Shown: in pieces, positions 4,787 to 64,000 of the stretch
How positions within the stretch are numbered: the stretch's first letter is position 1
Layout: every line of letters begins with the position of its first letter
NCBI GenBank assembly: GCA_008729055.1
Contig: SDUX01000002.1
Location: forward strand, 2,445,874 to 2,509,873
DNA length: 64,000 bases
Direction of reading: 5' to 3'
DNA from: Pyropia haitanensis
Taxonomy: Eukaryota; Rhodophyta; Bangiophyceae; Bangiales; Bangiaceae
The notes under the pieces: generated by a model
The model's input: the letters and a program-made list of their open reading frames with translations, nothing else
Databases searched by the model: none
Told to the model about the DNA's origin: nothing
Program-made: the position numbers and the translations under genes

Positions 4787-7700
4787 CATTTAAGCATCAC
4801 TGTGTTGAGGAGGGCGGCCACGCGCCCGGAAGGTCGCCGCGACGTGGCCATTTGCGGGGGGCGACTGCCAGAACGCTCGCCGCTGCGCCCAGCCGCCCGA
4901 CCATCCCAACCGGCTGACATGCACGCCTACCGTAGGGTTGAACTGTGACTCACATGTTCTGCGACGGCACGCCGCCGCGTCCGAATCACTCGAGCGCCGA
5001 ATGGGTTCGTCCTCGCCTGCGGTCAGCACGATGGAGACGGCCACGCCCCCAGGCACGTCGATAATGCTCGCGGCTGGCGCTCCGCCACCAACCACCATCC
5101 CACTCCAAGCATGCCCCGCCGCAGCCGCCCTCCACTCTCCACTTCTTGCACGCACAGTGACACCCGGTCACTACAACCACCCCAGTTATCGCAGGGGGCT
5201 CGTCGAGAAGGGTCTCGGCAATGTTCCATCAACCGCCCTCTGACGCCGCCCCTCGCAGTCCTCTTGCTCCTTTCCATAACGACAGCCGCAGCAACGTACG
5301 TGCAACCCGACCCTACCCCAGCCCACCTTCCATCGTCACCCCCCTTCCTGCTCCGCGCCCGTTGCCGCGGAGGACAACTCACCACCCACGTGATTGCCAC
5401 GTCAACAGTCCGCCCTCCCCCCCCACCAACAACAACCAGTGCTTGCTGTCGCCGATTGGAACGACCGTAGCCAGTCTGGCCCAATAGCTGGCCACCTGGT
5501 CAGCCGAGGCCGTTCTCTCTGTCTCCTTCAGAAAAAAAAGACACCGTTGGAGAGAGGAGAGTGAGCTCGTTCTCATGGTGCTTTATATTTTCTTCTTCTG
5601 TGAGCAAGTATCTCGTAGCGCCGGCCTCAAAATCAGGTCGCCACGTGTAATGACCCTAAACAGGCCAGCTCCGCAATCGGCATCCAGGGCCCATCACGAG
5701 GTTGATACGGGTCAAGAGAGATCAGAAGGCCACATTGACTCTTGTCTCGCTGCCCCCCCTCTCCCCCCCGTGCCGTACGGAAACTCTACCATGCCCATAC
5801 GCATGCGCTGGCGCCGCGCGCCAGCCAGCAGGCGTTTTTTTTGGACCGTTTTAACGCGGCCGCGGACCCGCCCGTCCTTCGTCCTGAGATCTTCTCGCGC
5901 ATGGTTTTTCGTGGGTTGCTGCTTGTCGGCTGCCTTCTCTAATGCCTCTCTCGATTTGTCGGCATCAGCCTGCAGCTTCTCACCGATGGCCGTGGTCACA
6001 GCCTCAGAGTTGGCGACAGGCCAGGGACGACAGTGATGAGCAGGGAAACCAGGTTTTTACCAGACAATGTAAGAAAAAGCTCGCCGGCTCGCACCAGCGG
6101 GTCCGCGGAGGGATGAGCTGGTTTAGCTAGCGTCGCACGCGCGGTCCCCCACGAGAAGAAGCGGCCTGCTGCGTCGTCGTATCAGGTCCATCGGTAGTTC
6201 TAGCAACGTTGCTGGATTCAGCATGGGTAGGCGGTATGATGCGGTCCAGGAGGGGGTCCTGGGGGTGGACTACGTGAGGTAGGATGGGGGTACAAAGGCA
6301 CTAATGGGCGACCAGTGTAGCGCAATCCGCGGCAGAGTGGGAGAGATCGTTGCGTGATGGGTCAATCTAGGGGTACACGTGGGCCACGTGGAGGGGCCGT
6401 TTTAGGGGCAGTGGCCGTTTATCGGTCCAGACAAGCTACCATCCTCCGCCTCTGTCCATGGCTCCCGAGGGATGCCATCGTCGCTGACCGGCCCTGCGTC
6501 TCCGCACACGGTCTGCTGATCCTATACCTCTACGCCCCGCAACCACTTGACCACTTCCTCCGTCCAACCCCCTTCATCCTTACCCTACGCAGTAGTGGTG
6601 TGCTTTGGCGGCGGTTGCGTGTCAGCCCTCTAGCTAGACCGTCAGAGGGCGAGCCAATAGTGTGCCGTAGGGGCCTGATCGCCTGAAAGCCGATGATTGG
6701 CTGCGACCGCAGCGCTCGTCGTCCCAATTGCTGATTGGTCAGGACACTGTTGTTCTCTCGTCGGATCTCGCCTGAGTTTCCATTCATCTCGGCTCGATCT
6801 TCTCAGGAACAGTTGTGCAGCTTGCCACAGATGTCTGTTCCACTCTGTTCTCCCCTCCACGTGCTCGGGATCACCAGAAAATCTCAGATCGGACAGATTG
6901 CCCAACAGTAGAGACTCATACGGAGCTCTCATTGGTCAGACAGGAAACCTGTGAGGCAATTTATTGGGCAGAGGACTGACTGTTGTTCTTGTTCTTGTCA
7001 GGATCGGCCAAAATTCAGAAAACTGCAATAGAACAGATAGAAGGGCGGGGGCAATGATAACAAGCAGGACGACTACATCAGGTACAGACCGGCTACGCAA
7101 CTTCACCGGGTTGCAACCAGTATGCACGCAGCTCGCTGGCTCTCCGTGTCCCACATCCCGATCATGGGTGGCACCGGCGACAGGGATGCAGAAAGCGGCC
7201 CTCGCTGCCCAGCAGATAATATTGCCCGACTTTGGGCGCAGACAGCACCGCGGGCGCTCACAGACCGAGCCAGCGTGGCAGATCGCACCGCCGCGCACGA
7301 GATCCGTTGGGGACTCTTGCAGCAGGAACAGGCCCAGAAGTGCGCGTTCTTGCCGGATCGAGTCCCTCTCGCGCGGCTGTCCTCCAGCGCGACACTTCCT
7401 CACGAGAACTCACACGAGTGCTCTCTCACTGTCCAACGGCGCCGTCCACAATGCGTCTCCAGCCTTGGGTGGCGGCCGGGCCGTAGGGAGCGGCCCGCGC
7501 GTGCGTTTTTCGGCCAGTCCAGTAGGCCGCCCGCACGCATGCAAGCCCGCTGCCATCAGTGCACATCTGAGTGGCGCCACCGATGGAAGGAGAGGTAGCG
7601 TCCTAGTGTTGGCACCGACGGAAGGGAACTAGCGCGTGGCAGATTCATTGGGGGCGAGGAGAAGCGGCCGTCAGGCACAGGCAGACAATCTAGTTGTCTT

Positions 7701-55425: not shown

Positions 55426-55445
55426 TGGCCAGCTGCCAACACGGG

Positions 55446-56376
55446 GAAACACTCCGCTCCGACTCGAGACATTTACGCTCCGCATCGAGAGCTTTACGCT
55501 CCGGGTCCGTCCTGGGGCACGGTGAGGGCTTCCATCCTGCGGCTGGGGCGGACCCTCTCCGCCTCGAGTCTTAACCGTGGACCTATAGGATGCGCGCAAT
55601 CTACCCGGGACCACACGGTGGGGGTCGAATTTGAGGCTCTCATTCACTCCGCTGCGACGACCTGAACCGCAGATTCACGCCACCGTCGCCCGCTGGCCTA
55701 TATCTCGCGCGTCCCATTCTCGACAGGATCAGGCCGCACACATGCCACGTTGCGCGCTTTTCCAAAAGTCATGCGTGCCGGATCTCGAAACCTTTCGCCT
55801 GAAAAACGCCCCCGCCCCGCGCCCCCGGGGCCCCCCGCGCGCCCGCGGGGCGCCCGCGCCGCCCGCGCCGCCCGCGCCGCCGCCCGCGCCGCCCGCGCCG
55901 CCCGCGCCGCCGCCCGCGCCGCCCGCGCCGCCCGCGCCGCCGCCCGCGCCGCCGCCCGCGCCGCCCGCGCCGCCGCCCGCGCCGCCCGCGCCGCCCGCGC
56001 CGCCCGCGCCGCCCGCGCCGCCCGCGCCGCCCGCGCCGCCCGCGCCGGCGCCGCCGGCGCCCGCGTCGCGCCCGCGCCGGCCGCGCCCGCGCGGCCCCCG
56101 CGCCGCTCCCGCGCCGGGCGCGGCCGCGCCGCGCCAGCGCCGCCCGCGCCGCGCCAGCGACGCCCGTGCGCGCGCGCCTGCGCGTGCAATGCCTGTGCGC
56201 GCGTCCGCGCACACGCCGTCCGCACCCGCGCCGTCCGCGTCCGCGCCGCTGGCGCCCGCGCCGCGCCGCGCCACGAGCGTCGCTACGAAAAATCCGGGCC
56301 TCGCGGACCTGGCCCTTCTCTCTTCACTTCCGTCGGTTACAGTACTCTTCATGGACGCTCTCACCCAGTACAGGCA
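55446..56376 (+). repeat. Left inverted arm of the foldback-like element
   Basis: 931 bp. It contains a 9-bp GCCCGCGCC minisatellite at about 55850-56060, interrupted by extra GCC triplets, flanked by unique arm sequence shared with the right arm. Confidence 0.75.
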
Positions 56377-56758
56377 ACCTTAACCCCTCCCTAATTTTCA
56401 TTAACCCACCCTTAAGTGGCTCTAACCACCCCCTAAACGGCCCTAAGTGGCCTTAGCAACCTTAACCCCCCACTACTTTTCATAAACCCACCCCTAAGTG
56501 GCCCTAACCACCCCCTAAACGGCCCTAAGTGGCCTTTGCAACTTTAACCCCTCCCTAATTTTCATTAACCCACCCCTAAGTGGCCTTAACCACCCCCTAA
56601 ACCGCCCTAAGTGGCCTTAGCAACCTTAACGCCCCACTACTTTTCATGAACCCACCCCTAAGTGGCCCTAACCACCCCCTAAACGGCCCTAAGTGGCCTT
56701 AGCAACCTTAACCCCTTTCTAATATTCATTAACCACCCCCGAAAAGGCTTAATAACCC
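56376..56758 (+). repeat. 82-bp satellite in an A-B-A-B order
   Basis: Units start at 56376, 56458, 56540, 56622 and (partial) 56704, exactly 82 bp apart. Units 1 and 3 share CTCCCTAATTTTCATTAACC; units 2 and 4 share CCACTACTTTTCAT. The true period is therefore a 164-bp dimer. CCCTAA and CCTAAGTGGCC occur several times per unit. Confidence 0.85.
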
Positions 56759-58430: not shown

Positions 58431-58462
58431 CGTCGACGGCATCCCCCAGCCGCTGCCGAGGC

Positions 58463-59674
58463 TGCCTGTACTGGGTGAGAGCGTTCATGAAGAGTACTGT
58501 AACCGACTGAAGTGAAGAGAGAAGGGCCAGGTCCGCGAGGCCCGGATTTTTCGTAGCGGCGCTCGTGGCGCGGCGCGGCGCGGGCGCCAGCGGCGCGGAC
58601 GCGGACGGCGCGGGTGCGGACGGCGTGTGCGCGGACGCACGCCCAGGCATTGCACGAGCGGGCGGCGGGCGCGCGGCGCGCGCGGGCGTCGCTGGCGCGG
58701 CGCGGGCGGGCGGCGCGGGCGGCGGGCGGCGGCGCGGGCGGCGCGGGCGGCGGGGCGGGCGGGCGGCGGGGCGGGCGGGCGGGCGGCGCGGGCGGCGCGG
58801 GCGGCGCGGGCGGCGCGGGCGGCGCGGGCGGCGCGGGCGGCGCGGGCGGCGCGGGCGGCGCGGGCGGCGCGGGCGGCGCGGGCGGCGCGGGCGGCGCGGG
58901 CGGCGCGGGCGGCGCGGGCGGCGCGGGCGGCGCGGGCGGCGCGGGCGGCGCGGGCGGCGCGGGCGGCGCGGGCGGCGCGGGCGGCGCGGGCGGCGCGGGC
59001 GGCGCGGGCGGCGCGGGCGGCGCGGGCGGCGCGGGCGGCGCGGGCGGCGCGGGCGGCGCGGGCGGCGCGGGCGGCGCGGGCGGCGCGGGCGGCGCGGGCG
59101 GCGCGGGCGGCGCGGGCGGCGCGGGCGGCGGGCGGCGCGGGCGGCGCGGGCGGCGCGGGCGGCGCGGGCGGCGCGGGCGGCGCGGGCGGCGCGGGCGGCG
59201 CGGGCGGCGCGGGCGGCGCGGGCGGCGCGGGCGGCGCGGGCGGCGCGGGCGGCGCGGGCGGCGCGGGCGCCCCGCGGGCGCGCGGGGGGCCCCGGGGGCG
59301 CGGGGCGGGGGCGTTTTTCAGGCGAAAGGTTTCGAGATCCGGCACGCATGACTTTTGGAAAAGCGCGCAACGTGGCATGTGTGCGGCCTGATCCTGTCGA
59401 GAATGGGACGCGCGAGATATAGGCCAGCGGGCGACGGTGGCGTGAATCTGCGGTTCAGGTCGTCGCACAGAGTGAATGAGAGCCTCAAATTCGACCCCCA
59501 CCGTGTGGTCCCGGGTAGATTGCGCGCATCCTATAGGTCCACGGTTAAGACTCGAGGCGGAGAGGGTCCGCCCCAGCCGCAGGCTGGAGGCCTTCACTGC
59601 GCACCCCGACGCCCCCGGAGTACAAAACACTCGATGCGGAGCGTAGATGTCTCGTGTCGGAGCGGAGTGTTTCC
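58463..59674 (-). repeat. Right inverted arm of the foldback-like element
   Basis: 1212 bp, the reverse complement of 55446-56376 but longer because its minisatellite is expanded. Its outer edge lies about 580 bp upstream of the start codon at 60256. Confidence 0.75.
58735..59273 (+). repeat. GGCGCGGGC 9-bp minisatellite
   Basis: A nearly perfect 9-bp array, more than 50 copies, with irregular units at the left end and one interruption near 59128. All six frames across it are open, which is a trivial consequence of the unit being a multiple of three without stops. The alternating CGCG core favours Z-DNA or hairpins. Confidence 0.9.
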
Positions 59675-59680
59675 TTGTGC

Positions 59681-60255: not shown

Positions 60256-61641
60256 ATGACGGGCACCAACGGGGCGGCGTCCCCCACCGACACGGTGCTG
60301 GCACAGTACAACACGGATGAGTCGGCCCAGTTTTACTCGGTCATCATGGGCGACGGCACCGCACACGTGCACTATGGTGTGTACACGTCGCCCGACGACA
60401 CGGTGCGGCAGGCAGTGGCCGCTACGAACACCACTCTCCGCGTCCTTGCCGAGAGCGCAGGCGCCGTCTTTCGCCCCGGCGTGCGGGTGCTGGACCTGGG
60501 CGCCGGCAACGGCGGCACCGCGCACGCGCTCGCCGCCGCTACCGGCTGCTCCGTCACGTGTCTCAACCTGTGCGAGGTGCAAAATGCGGCCAACGAGGCG
60601 GCCGCGGCGGCAGAGGGCCTCTCCTCCCTCATCACGGTCGTGACGGGCTCGTTCGAGGACCTCCCCGCCAACTGGTCCGGCTCGTTTGACGTCGTCTGGT
60701 CCCAAGACGCGATTGTCCACTCATCGGACAAGGGGCGGGTGTGGGCCGAGGCCGCGCGGGTGTTGGTACCCGGCGGTTACGTGGTGCTCAGCGACATTAT
60801 GGCGGCGCCGTCGGCGGCCGACGCGGCGCTTCGCGCGTTCAAGAAGCGGCTGCACGTGGACGAGCTGCTGACGCTCGACGGGTACGAGGCGGGCCTGCGT
60901 GAGGCGGGCGTGTCAACACTCCGCACCCGCGACATGTCGGGCCAGCTGCTGCCAAACTACCGGCGGATGCTCGAGCGGATCACCACCGAGCGCGCCCGCC
61001 TGACCCAATGCTCCGACGCGTACCTCGAGCAGTACGCGGGGCTGCTGCGCGACAACATCAAGGTGCTGTGCGATGGTGAGGCGCAGGCGTGGTGCGCGCT
61101 CGTCGCGCGCAAGAACGGCTTTGCCGCCACCAGCCGCACCGCCTCCGCGGTCGCGCCCGCCAACGGCGTCGCCGCCGCCGCCCCGGCGGCGGCGGGGCCG
61201 CTGGCGAGCGCGCCGGTCAAGCGGTGGGTATCGTCCAAGATCCATGGCGTGCGGGTGACACGCAAGAGCGTGTCGTACCATGGGAGCGTCGGGGTGTCGC
61301 GGACGATCCTCGCCGCGGCGGGTATCACCGAGTATGAGGTGGTGGACGTGGTCAACCTGACCAACGGCGCGCGGTGGACCACCTACGCGCTGGGTATCGA
61401 CGCGGAGGGCGCGTTTTCGCTCAACGGCGGGGGCGCGCGGCTGGGGGAGATGGGTGACGTGTGCGTCATCATGGCGTACGTCGACTCGACTGAGTACAAA
61501 CCCGCGCGGGTGGCCATCTTGGGCGGGGGGAACGTCGTCATTGACGAGTTCGCGTACGAGCATCAGGCGTGCGGCAAGGCCGCGGCCGCGGCCGCGGCCG
61601 CCGAGGCTGCGGCCGTGGCAAACGGCACGGCCGATCGGTAA
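60256..61641 (+). CDS. Fusion of a sarcosine/dimethylglycine-type N-methyltransferase with a PanD-like aspartate 1-decarboxylase domain
   Basis: Predicted 461 residues, single frame, ATG at 60256. Residues 1-290 are a SAM-dependent methyltransferase: motif I VLDLGAGNGG at 78-87, then LNLCEVQN, GSFEDLP and FDVVWSQDAIVHSSD. These are hallmarks of glycine-betaine-pathway sarcosine/dimethylglycine methyltransferases. An Ala/Pro linker (about 292-321) leads to a complete pyruvoyl decarboxylase domain. Aligned to E. coli PanD with the same spacing, Lys9 is K328 (SKIHGVRVT), the self-cleaved Gly24-Ser25 is G343-S344 (YHGS), Arg54 is R373, Thr57-Tyr58 is T376-Y377 (TNGARWTTYA), and Asn72 is N390 (LNGGG). 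The domain should cleave itself at Gly-Ser to make a pyruvoyl group and decarboxylate aspartate to beta-alanine, or cysteate or cysteine sulfinate to taurine compounds. The attached methyltransferase could N-methylate the product. No targeting peptide is seen. Confidence 0.88.
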   Translation: MTGTNGAASPTDTVLAQYNTDESAQFYSVIMGDGTAHVHYGVYTSPDDTVRQAVAATNTTLRVLAESAGAVFRPGVRVLDLGAGNGGTAHALAAATGCSVTCLNLCEVQNAANEAAAAAEGLSSLITVVTGSFEDLPANWSGSFDVVWSQDAIVHSSDKGRVWAEAARVLVPGGYVVLSDIMAAPSAADAALRAFKKRLHVDELLTLDGYEAGLREAGVSTLRTRDMSGQLLPNYRRMLERITTERARLTQCSDAYLEQYAGLLRDNIKVLCDGEAQAWCALVARKNGFAATSRTASAVAPANGVAAAAPAAAGPLASAPVKRWVSSKIHGVRVTRKSVSYHGSVGVSRTILAAAGITEYEVVDVVNLTNGARWTTYALGIDAEGAFSLNGGGARLGEMGDVCVIMAYVDSTEYKPARVAILGGGNVVIDEFAYEHQACGKAAAAAAAAEAAAVANGTADR

Positions 61642-62144: not shown

Positions 62145-63754
62145 TTAGGCGGCGGCCCGCCACCCCCCAATGCTGCCTGGCCCCGCCGACCCGCCGCGCG
62201 CGTCCCCCCCCCACCCGTCCCACTCTCCCCCCTCGTACCCCGACTCGATGACGCCCGACAGCCACTCGACCCCCCCCCGCAGCCGCGGCGGCGACGCCGC
62301 GTCGGCCACCCGCCGCAGCCAGCACTGCCGCGCGACGGCGCTGCGGTAACCCGCCACGCCATACGCCCACACATTGCAGCCGGGCCGGCGGCGGCACGCC
62401 GCCGCACACGCGGCGCACGACGTCATGACCGCGGCGGCGCCGTCGTTGAGGTCCTCCCCGCCATACTGCACGCCCCAGTCGCCCTCGCACGGCGGGTTGG
62501 CAGACGCCTCGCCGCTAATGTAGGGGCTGCTCGCGACCGCGCCCGCGGCCGCGGCGGCCGACTCGGACGCGCGGACGAGCGGCGCGCGCAGCGTGACCGC
62601 CCCGTCGGCGGTGGCGGCCTTTTTGTGCCAGCACTCGCCGGCGGCGGCGCCGCCGCCGGGGGCGCCCCACACCCACGTGTCGCAGCCGGGCGCGCGGCGG
62701 CACGACGAGAGGCAGTCGGCGCAGCTGGCCGCCCGCCACGCGGTGCCGTCGTTGAGGCGGATCCCGTCGAGCTCCCCGCGCACCGCCGCGGTGCCGGGCG
62801 CACACAGCGGCTCGTCACCAAACGGGGAGGCGAGGCCGCCGCGCGAGACGACCAGCCGCGTCTCCTCGGAGCGCTCCGACGCGGCCCCCGGCGGGGGACC
62901 CCGGCCGCCATCCCCGTCGGGGCTGCCCGCCCCACACACCGACGGGGAGGTGACGGCAAAGAGCGTGACACCGCTGTCCTCCTCTGATACCACCCACGTC
63001 ACCGCCATCGTGACGGTGCCCCCATACACGCGGTGGGTGGTGGCCGGCACGGGAAACACCTCCCCTAGCGAGCCGGGTAGCTCCACGTACACCCGAATGT
63101 CCAAGCCGGCCGCCGCCTTGGCCGACCACGTCAGCGTCGCAGAGGTGCTCGCGTAGAGGGTAAGCGTCGTGACCGGCCGCGGCAGCAGCCGCAGCGCCTC
63201 GATGGGCGCCGCCACCCCGCCACACGCGCCATTGTTGGCCACCATCACGGTCACGACGCCCGCCCGCGACGGCTCGGCACAGTCGACGACGAGGTCGGGC
63301 GCGGCGGCCGCCTCGGCGGCGGCCGCGTCGGCCGCCGCGGCCGCCTCGGCCGCCGCGGCGGGCCCGCCATCGGCGGCGGCGGCGGCGGCCACGTCGGCCT
63401 CGGTGGGCCCGTCCAGCGGCGGCGCGCCAGCGGTGGCCGCGTCCGCGGCGGCGGCCTCGCGTCCGGCCGCCGCGTCGGCCTCTGCCGCCACCGCCTCGGC
63501 ATCCGCGTCGGCGGCGGCGGCCTCATCGGCGGCCACGCCGTCGGCGGCGGCGGCGGCTGCCGCGTCGCTGTCGGCGGCCGCCTCGGCGTCGGCCGCCGTC
63601 GCGTCCCCATCGTCGCCCGCGGCGGCGGCCGTGTCAAACGGCGCCGCGGGCGTCACCTGCCGGTCCGTGGCAGCGCGCGCGGTGGTTGGCGGTACGCCCG
63701 CGGGGGCCAGGGGCGGGAACCCCACGGGCCACGCGTCGGCCTCCACGCCGCCAC

Positions 63755-63803
<49 letters not shown>

Positions 63804-63905
63804 GGTCACCTCTGCGGGTAGCCAACCGCCCACCGCGACGGTGACGGCGGTCGTGGCAGCGGCGGCGGCCGCCGCCGCCCCCACCCACCTCCCCCGCCGG
63901 CGCAT
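62145..63905 (-). CDS. Membrane-anchored protein with two PAN/Apple-like modules
   Basis: Predicted 586 residues from the ATG at 63905. The frame remains open upstream toward the window edge, so the N-terminus is not certain. Basic residues (MRRRGRWVG) precede an Ala/Val/Thr hydrophobic segment (about 9-28), a signal anchor. Then comes a long Ala/Asp/Glu-rich stalk (about 85-218) with a polyalanine tract encoded by a GCC array near 63753-63800. A beta-rich region (about 218-320, starting DLVVDCAEPSRAGVVTVMVA) follows. Two PAN-like modules follow, at about 363-430 (CADCLSSCRRAPGCDTWVWG and a CWHKK pair) and about 475-535 (CAACAAACRRRPGCNVWAYG and CWLRR). PAN modules bind carbohydrate or protein ligands, so a cell-surface or wall-binding role is likely. 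No kinase domain is present. Confidence 0.75.
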
Positions 63906-64000
63906 GGGGGAACCCCACCGGCGGCGGCGGCAGCCGCGGCGGCCAGACGCACCGCCGCCCCGAGCCGCCGCCCCGTCCGCTGCGGCGGCCACAGTGGCCG
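63906..64000. other. Window edge
   Basis: The minus-strand frame of the PAN protein continues open here. Too short to judge whether it is coding. Confidence 0.5.

Follow-up and report, generated by a model that had tools for sequence, protein, structure and literature searches.

What would a red alga do with an S-adenosylmethionine (SAM)-dependent methyltransferase (MT) joined, in one polypeptide, to a pyruvoyl-type decarboxylase? The question is raised by a gene of Pyropia haitanensis that lies in a 64,000-nucleotide stretch of DNA (the window; contig SDUX01000002.1 of assembly GCA_008729055.1, positions 2,445,874 to 2,509,873 of the forward strand) and whose product combines an MT resembling sarcosine/dimethylglycine N-methyltransferase (SDMT) with a domain resembling PanD, the aspartate 1-decarboxylase of bacteria. 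The answer favored here, to which we assign a probability of a little under one half (about 0.47), is a self-cleaving protein that decarboxylates aspartate and methylates the beta-alanine formed. The parts of the gene on which the argument draws are the following (window positions; residue numbers of the encoded protein, P0001).

60256..61641, + strand: whole MT-PanD fusion frame (P0001), 461 amino acids, a single open frame without internal stop
60268..61119, + strand: SAM-dependent MT domain, SDMT-like, residues 5-288
60490-60789, + strand: Methyltransf_11 core, residues 79-178 (Pfam)
61126..61209, + strand: Ala/Pro-rich linker of low confidence, residues 291-318 (pLDDT <50; sequence)
61210..61575, + strand: PanD-like pyruvoyl decarboxylase domain, residues 319-440 (PF02261, E 7e-26; AlphaFold2 pLDDT 94.5, PanD fold)
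61237..61239, + strand: Lys328, equivalent of E. coli PanD Lys9 (in 7/7 intact fusions; gone in 3/3 with degenerate PanD)
61282..61287, + strand: Gly343-Ser344, predicted self-cleavage site, Ser344 being expected to become the pyruvoyl group (alignment)
61372..61374, + strand: Arg373, equivalent of E. coli Arg54 (alignment)
61423..61434, + strand: Asn390-Gly-Gly-Gly, the Asn72 equivalent followed by Gly-Gly in place of E. coli Ala74-Ala75
61564..61638, + strand: Ala-rich C-terminal tail, residues 437-461, part of it predicted helix, at moderate to low confidence

The fusion frame itself is confirmed. MT and PanD occupy one polypeptide, as the earlier note on this DNA had claimed, and the two Pfam families by which it proposed to check the claim, Methyltransf_11 and Asp_decarbox (the latter spanning residues 324-415), are both found in P0001 above the Pfam cut-off. 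The MTG start is common to 9 of 13 aligned relatives. A whole-query search of ~5.8 billion proteins, in which the best 7997 candidates were scored, returns 14 at E 0.001, and 6 of 724 candidates when the PanD part is the scored region; of the close relatives, one is named as a protein of Porphyra umbilicalis and one as a protein of Pyropia vietnamensis. Seven proteins combine the two halves with a PanD site that is intact (P0001, P0002, P0003, P0004, P0016, P0017 and P0018, the last of these without its N-terminus), so that the other proteins of this architecture for which the earlier note had asked number six, one of them (P0004) from P. umbilicalis. No publication on an MT-PanD fusion was found in the open-licence literature; the architecture is new and is built from already known families.

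The PanD half scores 90.8 bits against PF02261 (gathering cut-off, 25), and its predicted structure is that of a PanD fold by AlphaFold2 and structure comparison (the comparison lists are incomplete by family, and absence of a family from them carries no weight). Alignment with E. coli PanD is collinear and places Lys328, Gly343-Ser344, Arg373 and Asn390 where they had been said to be, including the one residue that is missing ahead of the Asn72 equivalent. Ten site residues shared with the E. coli enzyme (K328, H330, Y341, G343, S344, R373, T376, Y377, N390 and G391) are identical in all seven intact fusions, which have the Gly-Ser self-cleavage site together with the catalytic Lys, Tyr, Arg and Asn.

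The likeness of the N-terminal half to SDMT, also proposed earlier, is borne out in two ways: SDMT (NF041675) is its best sequence match, and structure comparison assigns it an SDMT-like class I MT fold, with the Galdieria protein (2o57) first among the matches, tied with AtmM. At residues 198-200, R-x-H is found in six of the seven intact fusions (P0017 has M-x-H) and likewise in the SDMT-like rows P0013 and P0014 and in P0006; P0005, P0007 and P0008-P0012 have R-x-R. Phosphoethanolamine methyltransferases presumably have R-x-Y at the equivalent positions, and R-x-H thus leans away from that assignment.

How might two such halves work together? In the reading that we favor, the precursor would cut itself at the Gly343-Ser344 bond. 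One product would be a chain of residues 1-343 (MT, linker and PanD beta peptide, with the MT covalently tied), the other an alpha chain of residues 344-461 with the pyruvoyl group at its beginning. If it is self-cleaving, the mature enzyme would therefore consist of two chains, the MT and beta chain being separate from the alpha chain. Both chains would stay in a PanD-like oligomer carrying MTs around it. The PanD half would convert L-aspartate to beta-alanine, and the MT half would carry out SAM-dependent N-methylation of beta-alanine to beta-alanine betaine, a compatible solute that would be built up on drying; the same beta-alanine would also feed pantothenate through pantothenate synthetase (PanC). 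Decarboxylation would precede methylation, because the pyruvoyl group of PanD can form its Schiff base only with a free primary amine. This logic is common to three substrate pairs, aspartate/beta-alanine, cysteine sulfinate or cysteate/taurine, and phosphoserine/phosphoethanolamine; the first is favored because the PanD site is kept, because PanC needs beta-alanine and because beta-alanine betaine has been reported.

The metabolic setting is as follows (genome family searches were read exon by exon, and absences are provisional). The genome, 52.9 Mb in 136 contigs, encodes PanC and has a single PF02261 match, which is the fusion, making the PanD domain the obvious source of beta-alanine. Dihydropyrimidinase/hydantoinase-type matches score 70.8, 42 and 40.8 bits against a cut-off of 393, one of them with stops in frame, and PF02784 decarboxylases give 5 matches. 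A hydantoinase-type match with stops (G000:C87:9677-10189) and an Orn/Arg decarboxylase match (G000:C116:10152-10703) lie outside the large contigs and may be bacterial contamination of the assembly. A review, whose subject is land plants and yeast rather than red algae, states that no plant PanD has ever been identified or confirmed (PMC6657504, in part). For P. haitanensis itself, dehydration is reported to lead to an accumulation of beta-alanine betaine (PMC12113544, in part). The aspartate to beta-alanine betaine pathway put forward in the earlier note is supported in part, by its reported end product and by a probable ortholog that is induced by drying (PMC6356786, in part); its substrates, the self-cleavage and the sharing of one pathway are putative.

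That ortholog is PyPEAMT of Pyropia yezoensis (MK294536; Mao et al. 2019), which the accessible text describes as a protein of 468 residues with a single MT domain, highly similar to bacterial SDMT and published as a phosphoethanolamine methyltransferase, whose transcript climbs gradually with dehydration and peaks at 80% water loss (PMC6356786). The PyPEAMT primers given there encode, in one frame, LRTRDL and (complement of the reverse primer) SDAYLD. Among 16 proteins compared, a set that left out P0015 and P0017, the two peptides occur together in P0003 and P0004 only, both of them fusions, and P0003 has the published PyPEAMT length of 468 residues. In the window gene, 94 bases separate the two primer sites, the distance expected from positions 227 and 258 of P0003. 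In DNA sequence, the primers differ from the window gene at 4 and 5 of 20 positions and from its MT-only paralog at 5 and 4; only the encoded peptides separate the two. Since primer peptides and length match P0003, PyPEAMT is very probably the ortholog of the fusion.

Duplicates and relatives bear on whether the halves belong together. The SAM motif is retained in P0005 (from P. vietnamensis), P0006 and P0007, all of which have lost Lys328 and Ser344 (3/3); P0017, known from a single contig, keeps its PanD site and has lost the SAM motif, its MT half being decayed; P0008-P0012 are MT only. The MT-only paralog in the same genome lies on another contig (L003, 1435-2400; G000:C3:4233122-4234003), encodes 321 amino acids, is 60% identical to the fusion and is almost identical to P0010; a tblastn search for a PanD remnant near it gives matches at chance level only (best E 1.3). 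Two weak MT matches in the genome, L004 and L005, resemble, by eye, tocopherol-type and arsenite methyltransferases. That duplicates have lost opposite halves suggests that each activity is of importance and that the two are separable. In a tree of 120 rows and 117 columns (51 of the 101 standalone proteins that were compared, and 87 of 88 loci with identical ones merged to 62 rows, the partial L034 being left out; bootstrap not settled), the PanD domains of the seven fusions form one clade with support 99/94, and a single fusion event fits. The MT-half tree is poorly supported (4 of 14 inner branches starred) and its P0017 branch very long, so that it does not settle in which order fusion, duplication and loss took place.

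Where did the PanD half come from? Six of the seven fusions have the exact motif NGGGARLG (P0004 has NGGGARRG, different in one residue), and Gly-Gly after the Asn is nearly invariant among standalone relatives. In one genome each of 84,980 bacterial and archaeal species, a pattern scan finds 27 PanD loci, 5 of them with exact NGGGARLG; in 2.9 million viral contigs, only a few of which were checked for viral genes, the count is 61, of which 39 have the exact motif (26 distinct sequences). The exact patterns used in the two scans differed slightly, so that the contrast is only rough. Because the exact motif is rare in bacterial genomes and common in viral contigs, the PanD half was probably acquired from this virus-rich NGGGARLG pool; the PanD tree, in which the sister of the fusion clade is not settled, does not tell a phage donor from a bacterial one. 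The bacterial loci with the exact motif may also be mobile, since L014 and L019 have phage-like neighbors, at L014 a ParB-like one with phage-family matches; the L019 contig, labelled Neomarinimicrobiota, is probably a provirus or phage contig. At L019 (4429-7994), a tropism-determinant-like protein stands just before PanD and a radical SAM gene just after.

Other collections were also searched. A set of 50,697 phage records contains 15 with a match to the PanD part, none reaching 60% identity, and several of these records are unannotated or bacterial-looking; 276 of 72,556 plasmid records match part of P0001, none with a place covering 80% of it. At E 0.001, P0019 and two viral PanDs have no match among the PHROGs families. 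A hidden Markov model of the algal MT, run over all open reading frames of the 88 loci (27 bacterial, 61 viral; flanks often ending at contig ends), has one match, a generic MT at L018. Two stretches in viral contigs matched the pattern of the whole fusion and neither was confirmed. Frames at L011 (484 residues), L040 (265), L065 (242) and L070 (279) were considered as PanD fusions and rejected: Pfam gave PF02261 alone, and the N-terminal parts are taken as open frame. Directly upstream of PanD in L040, L041 and L055, and not in L019 (3/4 tested), is phrog_11143 (ABC-ATPase/acetyltransferase-like), which with phage-type PanD may form a phage module; a terminase is present at L055 as well, and L048 gives a weak match to one. 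In L048, PanD is followed by a CoA-transferase family III gene (6378-7124), and the frame after PanD in L011 (3026-3700) resembles the same family by eye.

Several points weigh against a route from aspartate to beta-alanine betaine. Both halves fall under their equivalog cut-offs, so that neither the aspartate decarboxylase nor the SDMT name is earned: at 65.1 bits against the 106 of the TIGR00223 aspartate 1-decarboxylase equivalog, the PanD half is filed as PanD-like, and the MT half scores 143.3 against 550 bits for NF041675, a strict cut-off (an SDMT-named Nitrospina protein scores 352.1). The Gly-Gly that replaces Ala74-Ala75 is a further departure from the E. coli enzyme, as is the Trp47 position, which is Val in the fusions (Ile in P0017), and AtmM, the equal of SDMT by fold, acts on a natural-product sugar. 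We know of no substrate for the phage PanD relatives, and aspartate is therefore not a given. Relatives that retain one half without the other (PanD lost in P0005-P0007, the SAM motif in P0017) make tight coupling of the halves not obligatory. Finally, the m/z 132 signal of beta-alanine betaine has isobars and the abstract says alanine betaine only (PMC12113544), and glycine betaine rises in drying P. yezoensis (PMC6356786, in part).

The alternative that survives best, though we think it rather unlikely, gives the halves two separate jobs: PanD supplies beta-alanine for coenzyme A only, the MT has an unrelated target, and the fusion is a historical accident. A single PanD match beside a PanC gene agrees with this, as do the reciprocal decay just described and the occurrence of MT-only paralogs, one of them in this genome; a PanD site intact in seven fused proteins that form one clade does not, nor does the drying response of the probable ortholog (PMC6356786, in part), which pantothenate supply alone does not predict.

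Unlikely too is the second route suggested by the earlier note, in which the PanD half makes hypotaurine or taurine from cysteine sulfinate or cysteate and the MT makes N-methyltaurines. N-methylated taurines occur in red algae. The genome encodes cysteine dioxygenase, and no PF00282 (GAD/CSAD) decarboxylase is detected in it by a search that is positive in 8 of 14 control genomes; to this extent the proposal is tenable. Taurine is described as a major amino acid of laver (PMC7024182, in part), and the Gly-Gly after Asn390 could give a sulfur acid group more room. Against this, the Gly-Gly is shared with standalone relatives, no sequence feature favors sulfonate or sulfinate over aspartate, a PCO/ADO-type thiol dioxygenase, also encoded in the genome, could make hypotaurine from cysteamine, and PanC still requires beta-alanine.

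More doubtful is a choline route, absent from the earlier note, in which the MT is a phosphoethanolamine methyltransferase, the PanD half converts O-phosphoserine, an acid similar to aspartate, to phosphoethanolamine, and the protein runs from phosphoserine to phosphocholine, the precursor of glycine betaine: the substrate pair likewise fits, and R-x-H at residues 198-200, against the presumed R-x-Y of such enzymes, leans the other way. An artefact, either adjacent genes read as one or bacterial contamination, can be dismissed, as nothing was found in its favor and both domains share one frame in seven proteins, the GC content of third codon positions is even along the frame, the gene is on a 7.56 Mb contig and P. 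umbilicalis has its own protein record (BU14_0143s0003).

Aspartate to beta-alanine betaine thus remains the favored pathway within a wider proposal, for and against which we find the scales level: laver-type algae would have taken up a phage-type pyruvoyl decarboxylase and fused it to an N-methyltransferase; the drought-induced, self-cleaving product would, within a single enzyme, make a methylated osmolyte, or the precursor of one, from an acidic amino acid (aspartate, cysteine sulfinate/cysteate or phosphoserine); PyPEAMT would be the same enzyme, misnamed; and duplicates would later have lost one half each. The fusion provides an intact-looking pyruvoyl decarboxylase domain in a photosynthetic eukaryote. 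It offers a gene with which the origin of the beta-alanine betaine reported from dried laver can be tested, and it is a candidate for the decarboxylation leading to taurine, a step whose enzyme was not detected. The reading of a published desiccation gene probably changes, and the fusion suggests that a eukaryote makes use of an enzyme domain whose subtype is virus-rich.

Just upstream of the gene, a long imperfect inverted repeat (55440-56380 and 58459-59679) surrounds a core of ~2 kb; its best arms, 206-334 nucleotides long and 88-96% complementary, contain GC-rich repetitive sequence, and it is possibly a mobile element. On the other side, an Ala-rich open frame of 615 residues (62145-63992, - strand) has repeated Cys-containing stretches towards its C-terminus.

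The algal protein can be compared with five known systems. The standalone NGGGARLG PanDs of phages, metagenomes and a few bacteria are 39-65% identical to its PanD half over 101 proteins, 96 of which have the exact motif (a word-based search favors shared motifs); unlike it, they are separate genes, with no SDMT-like MT in the available flanks of the 88 loci. Bacterial PanD (PF02261, TIGR00223) shares the fold and the equivalents of Lys9, His11, Tyr22, Gly24-Ser25, Arg54, Thr57, Tyr58 and Asn72; the algal domain differs in being fused to an MT, in reading NGGGA for NGAAA, in having Val for Trp47 and in its sub-equivalog score. SDMT, which the MT half matches best in sequence and, in a tie, first in fold, is set apart by an identity of ~30%, by the 143 of 550 bits and by the PanD that the algal MT carries. 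The beta-alanine N-methyltransferase of Limonium (BANMT), which we take to belong to the plant O-methyltransferase-like family PF00891, is not fused, and PF00891 is absent from the nine Pfam families listed for P0001 at E 0.001. Its product would be the same if the favored reading is right (PMC6657504, in part). PyPEAMT, finally, is named as a phosphoethanolamine methyltransferase, and the accessible part of its description mentions no PanD domain (PMC6356786); it is like the fusion in its LRTRDL and SDAYLD peptides, which are those of the MT half of P0003 and P0004, in having the length of P0003, in its similarity to SDMT and in its induction by dehydration.
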